The notes under the pieces: generated by a model | Database searches by the model: none | Seen by the model: only the letters and a program-made list of their open reading frames with translations | Told to the model about the DNA's origin: nothing | Position numbers and translations under genes: made by a program | From: Candidatus Krumholzibacteriota bacterium | GTDB taxonomy: Bacteria; Krumholzibacteriota; Krumholzibacteriia; LZORAL124-64-63 | Direction: 5' to 3' | DNA: 64,000 nt | Assembly: GCA_024275485.1 (NCBI GenBank) | Contig: JAJRZA010000076.1 | Span: forward strand, 1 to 64,000 | Shown: piece after piece, positions 43,179 to 47,521 of the stretch | Position numbering within the stretch: the stretch's first letter is position 1 | How the letters are laid out: each line of letters opens with the position of its first letter

Positions 43179-44000
43179 TCACCGGTAAAGCGCCTTCAAG
43201 CCATCCCAGGAATGCTCTTCGGTGGCGACCGTACCCTGATTCACGTCGAGCAAATACAGTGTGTCGAGATCGCCGCTCCAGACCAGATTCGACATCCAGG
43301 CCAAGCCCCACGGGTGACCGGAGGCCGCACCACAGCTTGAGGTAATATTTCCGTCAGCCGGATTGATGATGTAGATCTCGTGGGAGTAGCAGTCCGCCAG
43401 GACGAGCACTTCCCCGGATGCCAAATAGCCCAATCCTGAAGCACAATTCCCAGGTGAGGCAAAGGAATCGAGAATCGCGCCATCGGCCGGGTCCAACTTG
43501 TAGATCATGTTGTGACCATAATCGGCGTGCCAAAGATAAGTACCATCAAAGGCCAGCCCGGCCGAGTTGGGGTCACTGTCATCATGGCCGGGAGCCGGGA
43601 TCTCCGACATGATTGTGCCATCGGTGGGATCAAGTTGATAGATGGTGCCGTTCTGCTCATGGCAAGCCCAGAGTGTCTGTCCGTCCCAGGCCAGCCCGGC
43701 TATGCCCGGGGAGGTGGGGCCTGGTATGGAGTGGACGACGGAACAGGATTCCGGATCAATCTGAAAGATTCTGCTGGTGTCGAAGTAAAAGGCCAGCCAG
43801 ATGTAAGTGCCGTCGTAGGCGACTCCTCCAGGGAGCAGGTAATCCAACGGACAGTTGCTGGCAATTCCACAGGCATCACGGCCAGGTGCGGCATGGTCCG
43901 TGGATGATCCGCCGTCAACGCCGCGGATGGTGATTGCCTCAGATGGTGCAATTGCGGAGAAGCAGAGCACGAGTACGGAGATGATGATTATGAAACGCAT
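43179..44000 (-). CDS. Secreted beta-propeller-like protein
   Basis: 273 residues with a signal peptide (1-22). Repeated blades of about 45 residues share G.A.DG.YLW…..IYQLDP.DG.I, resembling SMP-30/NHL-type or YVTN-type propellers; about five blades are visible, so the ring may be incomplete or closed by dimerisation. No FlgD-like tail. ATG 44000 has GGGGGG just upstream. It lies convergent with the decarboxylase and downstream of the radical-SAM gene on the same strand. Possible ligand-binding or lactonase-like role is not supported by motifs. Confidence 0.7.
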   Translation of the reverse strand: MRFIIIISVLVLCFSAIAPSEAITIRGVDGGSSTDHAAPGRDACGIASNCPLDYLLPGGVAYDGTYIWLAFYFDTSRIFQIDPESCSVVHSIPGPTSPGIAGLAWDGQTLWACHEQNGTIYQLDPTDGTIMSEIPAPGHDDSDPNSAGLAFDGTYLWHADYGHNMIYKLDPADGAILDSFASPGNCASGLGYLASGEVLVLADCYSHEIYIINPADGNITSSCGAASGHPWGLAWMSNLVWSGDLDTLYLLDVNQGTVATEEHSWDGLKALYR

Positions 44001-44170
44001 TGTCCCCCCCATTTTGTGATATTTGCAGTGAGCAGCCCCTGGTAGATTTTTGATGACCCGCTACTTTATCATAACCAAGCGATCGGTAAAAGTTTGTTGT
44101 CGCAAAAGACATAAAAAGCCCTTCTTTCTTTTCCACCACCGTAAAAAAAGAAACCTTTGCTAACCCCTGC

Positions 44171-45691
44171 TCACACAACCACCGACTCCTCCAAAAACCT
44201 CCGCCTGTCCTCGGGCAACTTCAAAATTTCTACCAACATTTTCAATGTCACCTCCCTGTCCCTGCGCACCGACCGGCAAACCGCCTCGGGAACGGGCCTC
44301 TCACCTGATTCCGACTTGACATGCTCGGCCTGAACGGCAAAACAAACCCCGCACAATCTCAGCGCCCAGCAATCCGTGCACTTGTCTTTCACTGCATCAT
44401 GAAACTGATCCTGAAGGTCGAGAACCTGGGGCGATTCAATCCCCGCCTGCAAACTCCCTAGTTCCATGACGCAGCCAGTTCGCTCACATGGCTGAAACCG
44501 GCCATCGACTGTTACGTGGAGTTTCCGTTGGCCCGGTCGGCAATTTCCGCCTGGGGTAAATTTGTGGGCCAACGTCCCTCTGGATCGGTGATGGAGCTTG
44601 ATGATCTCCGGCTCGAACAACTCACGGATGACCGGACTGAGTTTGTCCCTTGTTCCATTTGTCACCGCCTCCAGGTATTGCTTTCGGGCCTGCTCCACCT
44701 GCTTCCCAAGGGCCAGGAAGTCTTCCTTTGAAGCAGACCAGTCCTGTCCTTTGAGGTTGGCGCTGTTGACCCGGACTGACGGAGGGGAGGGGATTCCATG
44801 TTTGACAAAGGGAGGGAAGTCGGCAAAGAAGTCGGCCAGCTCAAACAGATCTGTCGGTGGAGCCATTGTTGCGACGAAGGAAAGGCGCTTGTAGGTGGTC
44901 GGGTCACGGCCAAGCAGTTTGTCCAGGTTTGCGAGGACCTTGTCGAAGGTGCCGTTCCCATGGGCATCAACCCGGTTTTGATCATGCCACATGGCCGGGC
45001 CGTCAATGCTGATCTGGAGAAAAACCTTTTTTCGAATCACCAAATCAATGGCGCGGTCCGTTAGCAGTACCCCATTGGTGTCGATGATGAACATCGCATC
45101 TTTACCCCTGGGATGTTCCCTGCCTTCTTCGATGACTATTTCAATCAGGTCCAGTTCGAGGAGGGCCTCGCCTCCATAGAATGAGATCATCGGCTTCTTG
45201 CCTGGTTCTACTCTGTCCAGAAAGTACTTCAGGCTCTCAAGCGCGGTTTCGGGGGACATGGATTCGTCTTCATGGCCTCGCACCCAACCGAGGTCGGCCC
45301 CATGCACACAATACCGGCATCGTAGGTTGCACCGTTCGGTAACGGTCAGAACTAGGTGTTGGAAGTTGGAATCGCACTCTCCGGGCCTGGCGAGTTTGGG
45401 GTCCGGCGGGGCCAGGAGAGGCCGGAAGGCGAGGAACAGTCCTTCCTCTTTTCGGGCGGTTTCGATTATGGCGCATGCTTCGAGGATTTTGGGTTCCGGC
45501 CAGGTCTCTTTCAAGGACTGGACAAGGTCCTCCTGGCTCATGGTCCCGAAAAGAGGGATAACCGCGGCCAGTTCCGGGTCTATCTCCAGGATTTGGTTTG
45601 TGTTTACGTCGTAGTAGAAATGAAGGTCTTTGGTTTGAAAGACATGGCCGAAGACCTGGTTTGGGCGAGGAGGGGACAAGGGGTTCTCCAT
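44171..45691 (-). CDS. Radical SAM/SPASM peptide maturase
   Basis: 506 residues. An N-terminal region (about 15-85, HFYYDVNTNQILEIDPELAAV) resembles the PqqD-like peptide-recognition domain. The radical SAM core has CNLRCRYC (Cys121, Cys125, Cys128) and an SFYGGEALL loop. A SPASM-type tail provides Cys384, Cys402, Cys407, Cys438, Cys441, Cys447, Cys450 and Cys472, enough for two auxiliary [4Fe-4S] clusters. Such enzymes install thioether, C-C or related crosslinks in ribosomal peptides. A short Cys-rich peptide gene starts 214 bases upstream on the opposite strand. Exact chemistry is not readable from the sequence. Confidence 0.93.
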   Translation of the reverse strand: MENPLSPPRPNQVFGHVFQTKDLHFYYDVNTNQILEIDPELAAVIPLFGTMSQEDLVQSLKETWPEPKILEACAIIETARKEEGLFLAFRPLLAPPDPKLARPGECDSNFQHLVLTVTERCNLRCRYCVHGADLGWVRGHEDESMSPETALESLKYFLDRVEPGKKPMISFYGGEALLELDLIEIVIEEGREHPRGKDAMFIIDTNGVLLTDRAIDLVIRKKVFLQISIDGPAMWHDQNRVDAHGNGTFDKVLANLDKLLGRDPTTYKRLSFVATMAPPTDLFELADFFADFPPFVKHGIPSPPSVRVNSANLKGQDWSASKEDFLALGKQVEQARKQYLEAVTNGTRDKLSPVIRELFEPEIIKLHHRSRGTLAHKFTPGGNCRPGQRKLHVTVDGRFQPCERTGCVMELGSLQAGIESPQVLDLQDQFHDAVKDKCTDCWALRLCGVCFAVQAEHVKSESGERPVPEAVCRSVRRDREVTLKMLVEILKLPEDRRRFLEESVVV

Positions 45692-45905
45692 TGGTGAATG
45701 GGCGCTGTTTCAATTCCTACCTGATCGGGCAATCCCCCCTGCTATAAAGGGTAAGTCTCAAAAGGTCGATTTGGATGCAGGAAACGCTAATATTTTTTAT
45801 GAGAAAATTGGTAGGCGGAAATTTTTGTGGACAAGAATTTCCTGAGTGGCAAGATGCTGCTACGTCTCATATCCGCGTTGCGCCCACCTTTGCTGGAGGA
45901 ATGGC
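45692..45905. other. Divergent spacer between the maturase and the peptide gene
   Basis: 214 bases, AT-rich in its second half. Rightward, TATAAA at 45743-45748 has no matching -35 box. Leftward, TCGACC and TATAGC with a 17-base spacer is a weak promoter candidate for the maturase. GGAGGA at 45895-45900 is the ribosome binding site of the peptide gene. Confidence 0.4.
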
Positions 45906-46079
45906 ATGTATCGGAAATTGGAAAAGGATGATTTGGCAAAGGTTCAGGCCAAGAAAAGCGGACCTGAAAATATTTGTGAGTGCGTATGCAAATCTGAAAA
46001 AAACAATCCCGATGAAGAGAAAGCAGAGACAAACTTGGCCATCAACCAAGTAAGAATAGATTGGGACATTAACGGATAG
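45906..46079 (+). CDS. Candidate RiPP precursor peptide (57 residues, C-x-C-x-C core)
   Basis: A 57-residue peptide opposite the radical-SAM maturase. The charged leader-like N-terminus KLEKDDLAKVQAKK resembles leaders of Bacteroidota-type RiPPs, followed by CECVC (Cys24, Cys26, Cys28) and a Lys/Glu/Asn-rich tail with acceptor-type residues. GGAGGA is five bases ahead of ATG 45906. A longer frame opening at GTG 45846 would add Cys-rich residues but bury the ribosome binding site. The 3' end overlaps the convergent anti-sigma gene by 11 bases, which is a reason for caution. Role as the maturase substrate is inferred from layout. Confidence 0.5.
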   Translation: MYRKLEKDDLAKVQAKKSGPENICECVCKSEKNNPDEEKAETNLAINQVRIDWDING

Positions 46080-46788
46080 GCTTCCCCTTAAAGTAGGAAA
46101 CCTGCCCATATTTTTTTGTTGTCAAAACCCAGCCTTGAATTTGAAATGAAACTCCATCAAGCTGTTTTTCCTGGAAAATTGTCGGACTAATCGTTCCTGT
46201 TTCTATTTGTTCATTAAAATCACTCCAGTCTTCTAAAATAAAATTGCCAATGTCTTCATTTCTGGATGATGGGGGGACCAGAGAAGGGCGACCCGTTTCT
46301 GAATTTTTCCCATTGATAATATACTCCCGTCGTACAATCCAGCGGGTATTCCCTTTGATCATCCACCCTTCAACCCCAATGATAACCCCCAGGTCGGCAA
46401 GAAATTGTTGGTTTTTTTCATGGATATCCGCTTCACTATCACCCTCCAGTACATTAAACCCATCCCCGCGAAACTCGTTCTTCACAATCCGCCAAGGCCC
46501 CTTCGAATTCTCAACTTCAACCATATCAAACCCGTCACTACCCAAATCTGAAATATTGAATGCCAAAACACACAAAACGGCCAAGGACAACACAGACGCT
46601 ACCCGCTTGATATTCCGTCTCTCCCGTTTTTTCCGCACCAGCTGGTCGGCATACATCTTATCCCGGAAGTCGCTTAGAAATGCCTCCATGTCCTGATTAC
46701 AATCAGGAACAGATGGTCTCATCCCCCGAAGCCACTGATCAATCGGCTCATTGAATTCCTGGGTGTTGGTGTTTTTATTGTTCTTCAT
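46069..46788 (-). CDS. Membrane anti-sigma-like protein next to an ECF sigma factor
   Basis: 239 residues: a cytoplasmic N-terminal region (1-60) with a helical, charged character, one membrane helix (about 65-85) and an extracytoplasmic domain (90-239). That topology, and the overlap of its start with the sigma gene's end (14 bases), point to an anti-sigma factor. No zinc-binding ZAS motif is seen and I do not recognise the outer domain. ATG 46788 is chosen. It would hold the sigma factor until an envelope signal arrives. Confidence 0.65.
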   Translation of the reverse strand: MKNNKNTNTQEFNEPIDQWLRGMRPSVPDCNQDMEAFLSDFRDKMYADQLVRKKRERRNIKRVASVLSLAVLCVLAFNISDLGSDGFDMVEVENSKGPWRIVKNEFRGDGFNVLEGDSEADIHEKNQQFLADLGVIIGVEGWMIKGNTRWIVRREYIINGKNSETGRPSLVPPSSRNEDIGNFILEDWSDFNEQIETGTISPTIFQEKQLDGVSFQIQGWVLTTKKYGQVSYFKGKPIR

Positions 46789-47521
46789 TATTTCTGGGCC
46801 CCCTTCCCTTGCCCTCAAACACTTTCCAGCCGTCTTCCTTCAACGATGCGCTCCTGGCCAACTGCAATATCCCGGCGAATGCCGTTTGATCCAGACCCAG
46901 CTCGGTCAAATGCTCCAGTATTTTTTTCCTGCCCCGTTGCAAAATGGATTTCACGGTGGATTCTTTCTCTCCCATAACTATTGATATTTTGCTGGTAGTC
47001 AACTCCATCCGATAGTGATGAAAAAGGACCTCTTGCTGGATTTCACTTAAAGAAGCAAAACACGAAAACAACAGCTTGGCTTCTTCTTCCAACAGCATTT
47101 GATCATCAGGTTGACGGTTATCTATGAATTCAATGTTTTCCGGATCCAGGACGATTTCGCTGTTGCTGTTTTGCCGTTTCCATTGCGTATTTATGCAATT
47201 CCTTGCAATTTGAAACAGATACGCGCCAATCGAAACCCCACGCAATTGGAATTTTGGCAAGCCATCCCAGGCTTTGGTGAATGTTTCATTGGTGATCTCA
47301 TTTGCCAGATCATGGTCATGGGTCCTCTTGAAAACATACCCGAAAATTTTTCCATAGAACTTGCGTACAACTTTCTCGTATTCCTCGGGATCTTGCTTTA
47401 TGCGCTTGAGCCATTCCCTTTCAATTTCAAGATCAATAGATTCCTGTCTTCCTTCCCGAACATTTTGATCCACCCGGACCTGATCAACGACCTTTTCCTG
47501 CTTCTTTTTTTGCGGCTTCAT
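46775..47521 (-). CDS. ECF-type sigma-70 family factor
   Basis: About 248 residues. Region 2 is visible as YEKVVRKFYGKIFGYVF…DLANEITNETFTKAWDGL, and region 4 as LSEIQQEVLFHHYRMELTTSKISIVMGEKESTVKSILQRGRKKI, the helix-turn-helix that binds -35 elements. An extra C-terminal stretch (about 205-248) is longer than usual. ATG 47521 is used; the frame stays open to 47662 without a ribosome binding site. Co-transcribed with the anti-sigma-like gene, so it is probably signal-activated. Its regulon could include the maturase locus, which is inference. Confidence 0.88.
   Translation of the reverse strand: MKPQKKKQEKVVDQVRVDQNVREGRQESIDLEIEREWLKRIKQDPEEYEKVVRKFYGKIFGYVFKRTHDHDLANEITNETFTKAWDGLPKFQLRGVSIGAYLFQIARNCINTQWKRQNSNSEIVLDPENIEFIDNRQPDDQMLLEEEAKLLFSCFASLSEIQQEVLFHHYRMELTTSKISIVMGEKESTVKSILQRGRKKILEHLTELGLDQTAFAGILQLARSASLKEDGWKVFEGKGRGPRNNEEQ

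Follow-up and report, generated by a model that had tools for sequence, protein, structure and literature searches.

Several described systems come close to the gene set reported here, a putative cassette for a ribosomally synthesised and post-translationally modified peptide (RiPP) at positions 44171-47521 of a 64-kb stretch of DNA (hereafter the window) from a Candidatus Krumholzibacteriota bacterium. Those relatives of its radical S-adenosylmethionine (SAM)/SPASM maturase whose chemistry is known form cysteine thioethers; in CteB the leader sits on the RiPP recognition element (RRE), and in most sactipeptides the cysteine donors are N-terminal and the acceptors C-terminal, giving a hairpin (PMC8326336). 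Control by an extracytoplasmic function (ECF) sigma factor and a membrane anti-sigma is known from the microbisporicin and planosporicin clusters (PMC6001450), and the SacP23 cluster carries an ECF sigma alongside its TIGR04068 maturase (PMC10731318). Judged from sequence comparison, the nearest described family is the CcpM/CLI_3235-type bacteriocin system and not the common SCIFF ranthipeptides, and what differs here is the precursor family, the separate maturase clade, an ECF/anti-sigma partner that is nearly always present, and a neighbourhood in which no exporter, protease or immunity gene recurs. Our literature search found no paper on a radical SAM RiPP from Krumholzibacteria or on these peptide and anti-sigma families, and the SacP23 paper was the only relevant one found on CcpM/CLI_3235.

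The four-gene cassette and its co-inheritance

The cassette consists of genes for a short peptide, a maturase, an anti-sigma-like membrane protein and an ECF sigma factor (Table 1) and is, as its recurrence indicates, a real, conserved four-gene set of uncultured Krumholzibacteria; the four genes, their domain architectures, their conservation and their co-inheritance can all be read from the sequences. The initial annotation had joined peptide, maturase and sigma by layout and had proposed to look for the first two as neighbours in related genomes. We examined 27 maturase loci (the window and L041-L066) from 26 genomes, relatives' loci being given L numbers and their genomes G numbers; the four genes recur together across genera, and at least one CxCxC peptide open reading frame (ORF) lies beside the maturase in every one of the 27 loci. 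Sigma and anti-sigma genes complete the cassette in 24 of them; in G019 the two fall on different contigs. The remaining three are L056, a contig of only 3.3 kb, and both G057 loci, where several peptide copies of another type occur. These G057 loci (L064 and L065) have a related maturase and no anti-sigma, and their precursor copies are divergent (M[IL]F[RK]IRLP...CxCxC).

Across 80 genomes of the class, maturase and anti-sigma were found together in 25, the maturase only in 2, the anti-sigma only in 3 and neither in 50 (p 2.8e-15, a value that ignores phylogeny and overstates the evidence, since related genomes are not independent). The anti-sigma gene occurs essentially once per genome and follows the maturase in its distribution; among the three genomes that have it without a maturase, G012 and G032 represent contig ends (G032 still shows the peptide) and G003 is a real case. 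Outside the class, 37 maturase loci gave no anti-sigma match, and a distant ECF sigma was present in two Paenibacillus loci only.

The 57-residue CECVC peptide, the 214 bases that separate it from the maturase start on the opposite strand and its GGAGGA site were all recovered as first annotated. Most loci of the window's clade have convergent peptide and anti-sigma genes, also where the orientation of the maturase differs; the maturase may be divergent from the peptide, as in the window, L042 and L045, or lie upstream of it on the same strand.

Table 1. Positions of the cassette genes and of their sequence features in the window
Feature	Positions	Strand	Basis or remark
CcpM-like radical SAM/SPASM peptide maturase, 506 aa	44171-45691	-	
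RRE (PqqD-like winged helix-turn-helix) at maturase N-terminus, residues 14-85, predicted leader-binding domain	45437-45652	-	AlphaFold model and CteB profile/fold match
Radical SAM cluster motif CX3CX2C (C121, C125, C128)	45308-45331	-	Invariant in 24 sequences
SPASM region, C384-X12-G-X4-C402 ... C438-X2-C441-X5-C447-X2-C450 ... C472	44276-44542	-	7 invariant Cys
Ribosome binding site GGAGGA, 5 bases 5' of peptide ATG	45895-45900	+	
RiPP precursor peptide (putative), 57 aa	45906-46079	+	
Leader start MYRKLE, probable RRE-binding element	45906-45923	+	M[YF]xKL[ED] in relatives; function inferred
CECVC, C24-x-C26-x-C28	45975-45989	+	Invariant in 16/16 aligned precursors
Tail DWDING, possible cross-link acceptor site	46059-46076	+	[YFW][DE]ING in most of window's clade; role inferred
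Membrane anti-sigma-like protein, 239 aa: two-helix cytosolic part, one transmembrane helix, extracytoplasmic alpha/beta sensor-like domain	46069-46788	-	
Peptide/anti-sigma tail-to-tail overlap, 11 bases	46069-46079		Likewise in L043, L044, L045
ECF sigma factor	46775-47521	-	14-base overlap with start of anti-sigma gene

Maturase and precursor compared with described families

The PqqD-like N-terminus first attributed to the maturase is supported by the AlphaFold model (mean predicted local distance difference test, pLDDT, 93), which opens with a beta3-alpha3 domain (strands 15-20, 23-28 and 33-37, helices 39-47, 53-60 and 66-83), and by the closest solved structure, CteB, whose profile match (E 6e-51) and fold match (E 1.6e-22 to 5why) both span the RRE. 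The protein scores 55.5 bits against PF04055 and combines the CX3CX2C motif, which the annotation had also read correctly, with a seven-cysteine SPASM region and the TIM-like core of the CteB fold, as is characteristic of radical SAM/SPASM enzymes. All eight further cysteines that had been assigned to SPASM are present; 24 relatives keep seven of them without exception but do not conserve the eighth. Two auxiliary Fe-S clusters are expected in this region; the textbook SPASM motif ends in CX3C, and the last spacing here is CX2C.

The best NCBIfam match of the maturase is CcpM (TIGR04068; 240.2 bits versus a cut-off of 500, over residues 15-486 of 506), ahead of RumMC (NF035951; 176.6 versus 720), PapB (NF047865; 136.3 versus 340), QhpD (TIGR03906; 133 bits) and SCIFF (TIGR03974; 111.7 versus 425). 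The high-scoring relatives are peptide maturases without exception. The comparison with RiPP-class models that had been suggested at the outset placed the maturase nearest to CcpM but below every NCBIfam equivalog cut-off, and no NCBIfam family matched any of 16 precursors at E <= 1. In a 53-sequence tree the Krumholzibacteria maturases occupy one side of a branch with 100/100 support, and a 13-row CcpM-like set (Clostridia, Paenibacillus and one Halodesulfovibrio) forms a separate 100/100 group.

By these curated tests, membership is ruled out for CcpM (score and separate clade), for the RumMC sactipeptides (score), for the PapB ranthipeptides (score, and no CX3D repeats in the peptide), for SCIFF (score, and three cysteines in place of the six-Cys-in-45 pattern) and for the CLI_3235-type precursors (no NCBIfam precursor model matched).

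In L068 (G001, of the same genus as the window) the maturase is broken by stops and frame changes, with sigma and anti-sigma at the far end of the contig, which reflects either recent decay or an assembly error. Related maturases on Woesearchaeota and Nanoarchaeota contigs (L099, L130) adjoin small Cys-containing peptides (CPCPCPP; GCSCMGCGC).

The peptide of the window, MYRKLEKDDLAKVQAKKSGPENICECVCKSEKNNPDEEKAETNLAINQVRIDWDING, is the single M-started ORF of 35-100 codons with CxCxC in the 64 kb, and 195.8 kb of DNA from relatives, taken at a distance from maturases, contains none. M1, C24, C26 and C28 are kept in all 16 aligned precursors, most of which also begin with M[YF]xKL[ED]. Most of those from the window's clade have the [YFW][DE]ING end, and the middle is little conserved apart from short CxCxC or CxCxCxCxC runs. 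Purine-rich sites similar to GGAGGA precede the homologous ATGs in relatives. The initial annotation had let the link stand or fall with conservation of the frame in relatives that keep the maturase. The frame is conserved and is under purifying selection, with ratios of nonsynonymous to synonymous substitution of about 0.10 (L043/L044) and 0.22 (L048/L049) in two closely related pairs and changes mostly at third codon positions. A hidden Markov model (HMM) of the peptide matches 18 of 38 family genomes, all of which have the maturase, and none of the 13 genomes without it (Fisher p 1.6e-5); the maturase genomes that it misses hold diverged CxCxC or CxCxCxC(xC) forms (G007, G009, G010, G020, G027, G033) or a broken maturase (G001). 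A short encoded precursor is linked to a modifying enzyme in 27/27 loci and absent from 13/13 maturase-less genomes, as expected of a RiPP system. The variant precursors of L056, L058, L059, L060 and L061 carry four to six cysteines in alternating positions, for example KCSCSCSCSCSCPS in L058.

Compared with the CcpM/CLI_3235-type systems (SacP23, Paenibacillus polymyxa), the cassette shares the best-scoring maturase family, the ECF sigma of the SacP23 cluster and a precursor plan in which a Lys-rich KL-type start is followed by a central run of C-x-C-spaced cysteines and a tail free of them. It differs in its maturase (240 bits against 500, with a separate 100/100 group), in precursors that start with M[YF]xKLE, have three cysteines only (in the window's clade), end in a [DE]ING tail and belong to no NCBIfam family, and in its neighbourhood, which holds no recurring transporter or protease and adds an anti-sigma family unmatched beside the CcpM-type loci searched. 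The C-x-C-x-C spacing, first noted as tighter than in common ranthipeptides, is present but not unique: CcpM-linked precursors of Paenibacillus and Clostridia already have such runs (e.g. CGCSCYCPCSCYC), so that the spacing alone is not new. RumMC/ruminococcin C and other hairpin sactipeptides likewise have a SPASM maturase with an RRE, and N-terminal Cys donors with C-terminal acceptors would give a hairpin here too, whereas the score (177 bits against 720) and the Cys spacing differ and the chemistry of the present system is a prediction. The SCIFF/CteB and PapB/freyrasin ranthipeptides include the best solved-structure match, RRE included, but the maturase lies under both cut-offs (112/425 and 136/340 bits) and the peptide has neither of their cysteine patterns.

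The putative sigma switch and rival explanations

The ECF sigma of the initial annotation is secure (TIGR02937, 80.5 bits versus a cut-off of 42.9; PF04542 and PF08281 above cut-off), and consists of sigma2 and sigma4 domains only. The membrane anti-sigma-like protein also agrees with its first description, with predicted helices at residues 14-23 and 31-78, the latter enclosing the transmembrane stretch, and a confidently modelled alpha/beta ectodomain (pLDDT > 90 over most of its length). NCBIfam gave no match for these proteins, and a Pfam scan of 24 members gave one marginal match, to CnrY (E 0.007). The modelled helices suggest, as a lead, a resemblance to the CnrY-type (class II) anti-sigmas, which wrap the ECF sigma with two helices (PMC7406223). 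A fold search with the ectodomain found no significant solved relative; the best matches (E 5e-3, query TM-scores < 0.25) were dCACHE/PAS-like sensors, and kinship with CACHE/PAS sensors is only a lead. G029 (L041, 2288-3881) has tandem duplicate anti-sigma genes beside a peptide with an AAAGGG tail instead of YDING.

We consider it probable that these genes form a complete four-gene RiPP cassette, in which a thioether-type peptide and a SPASM maturase are joined by a dedicated ECF/anti-sigma switch. On the best reading, the product would be a sacti/ranthipeptide-like thioether RiPP made by a CcpM-related SPASM enzyme. By analogy with CteB, the MYRKLE start would bind the N-terminal RRE of the maturase, and the enzyme would then link the sulfurs of C-x-C-x-C to carbons of other residues; this is the best-supported reaction because the maturase relatives of known chemistry form Cys thioethers. 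The acceptors would most likely lie in the conserved C-terminal tail, whose lack of cysteines would suit a hairpin of the sactipeptide kind, and we put this forward as a proposal. The membrane anti-sigma would hold the ECF sigma inactive until its outer domain senses an extracytoplasmic signal, whereupon the freed sigma would switch on the cassette and possibly other genes. Precedent makes such control likely: in microbisporicin and planosporicin, too, the RiPP genes come with an ECF sigma and a membrane anti-sigma of their own, although these are actinomycete lanthipeptide clusters, whereas the present set belongs to an unrelated phylum, has four genes only and uses predicted radical SAM chemistry.

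Several observations weigh against this reading. The anti-sigma label derives from layout and topology, and one member in 24 weakly matches a known anti-sigma family. No promoter motif is common to the upstream regions of the sigma and the maturase/peptide genes: no exact gapped word is shared by them in at least three genomes, and a two-block Gibbs sampler gave scores slightly above those of shuffles at inconsistent positions, so that sigma control of the cassette lacks sequence support. No exporter or protease recurs in the cassette neighbourhoods. Finally, G003 keeps intact, overlapping sigma and anti-sigma genes without maturase or peptide, and the pair can therefore have another role.

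The competing explanations differ in what they make of the peptide. That it is no gene, or is unrelated to the maturase, is practically refuted by the 27/27 recurrence, the conserved start, cysteines and tail, the purifying selection and the absence of background CxCxC ORFs. It is very improbable that the peptide is a small structural subunit which the maturase cross-links for a larger enzyme, as QhpD does for quinohemoprotein amine dehydrogenase: the maturase does score 133 bits against TIGR03906, but it scores higher against CcpM and RumMC, and no catalytic partner genes recur. A peptide that binds metal or senses redox through its CxCxC motif, regulated as in methanobactin or cobalt-nickel systems, would fit a peptide middle that is poorly conserved except for its short CxCxC or CxCxCxCxC runs, the ECF/anti-sigma genes of methanobactin clusters (PMC9601215) and the two-helix, CnrY-like part of the anti-sigma. 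We regard this as unlikely, since TonB receptors and metal transporters are not among the recurring neighbours and a SPASM maturase is expected to use up the thiols in thioethers. The possible likeness to CnrH/CnrY/CnrX, where the cytosolic part of the membrane anti-sigma is a short two-helix segment, and the likeness to methanobactin MbnI/MbnR, where an ECF/anti-sigma pair accompanies a peptide natural product, are offset by the missing TonB receptor and by an anti-sigma that is one fused protein with a large, sensor-like ectodomain.

The most serious competitor, though still a minority option in our judgement, is an autoinducing signal, in which the exported mature peptide is the ligand of the anti-sigma outer domain and the locus is a signalling loop, not a bacteriocin factory. 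Peptide, maturase and anti-sigma are co-inherited as a cassette, peptide and anti-sigma remain convergent in most of the window's clade despite changes in maturase orientation, no immunity gene recurs, and planosporicin releases its own ECF sigma (PMC6001450). Against it, no exporter recurs beside the cassette, G003 has sigma and anti-sigma without the peptide, and ligand binding is hypothetical for an ectodomain without a significant solved relative. Somewhat more doubtful is the fuller version, a four-gene signalling unit of Krumholzibacteria in which RiPP and ECF switch are merged and a cross-linked CxCxC peptide would be the dedicated ligand of a sensor-ectodomain anti-sigma. Because G003 has the switch without the peptide, the cassette reading in which the peptide is the output of the switch rather than its ligand is weakly favoured.

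Both the peptide and the anti-sigma families are without NCBIfam match and come from a phylum whose natural products have hardly been studied. That a radical SAM RiPP is almost always accompanied by an ECF/anti-sigma pair, with no exporter or immunity gene recurring, suggests a sensing or stress role and not only killing. The cassette offers a directly testable case for the function of non-antibiotic RiPPs of this maturase family. Further loci can already be sought with the signature M[YF]xKLE...CxCxC...DING and its CxCxCxC variants.

Neighbouring genes

Besides the four genes, the recurring neighbours are a PrkA/DUF444/SpoVR operon, a family of secreted proteins and likely spurious frames in GC-rich DNA; no immunity gene, TonB receptor, metal transporter or catalytic partner gene recurs near the cassettes. 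The PrkA/DUF444 (YeaH)/SpoVR stress operon adjoins the cassette, or in G003 the lone sigma/anti-sigma pair, in several relatives (L044, L046, L050-L053, L063, L068 and L176), not in the window; this adjacency is a possible hint to the regulon of the sigma factor. Secreted-type proteins that end in W[GD]xxKxx[YF]R (e.g. SWDGLKALYR) are encoded in the window (43179-44012, minus strand) and in L042, L047, L048, L049, L052, L056 and L176. The DNA pattern for this C-terminus occurs at 21 places in the window's own genome versus 2 for the reversed control, and the end is possibly an uncharacterised C-terminal sorting motif.

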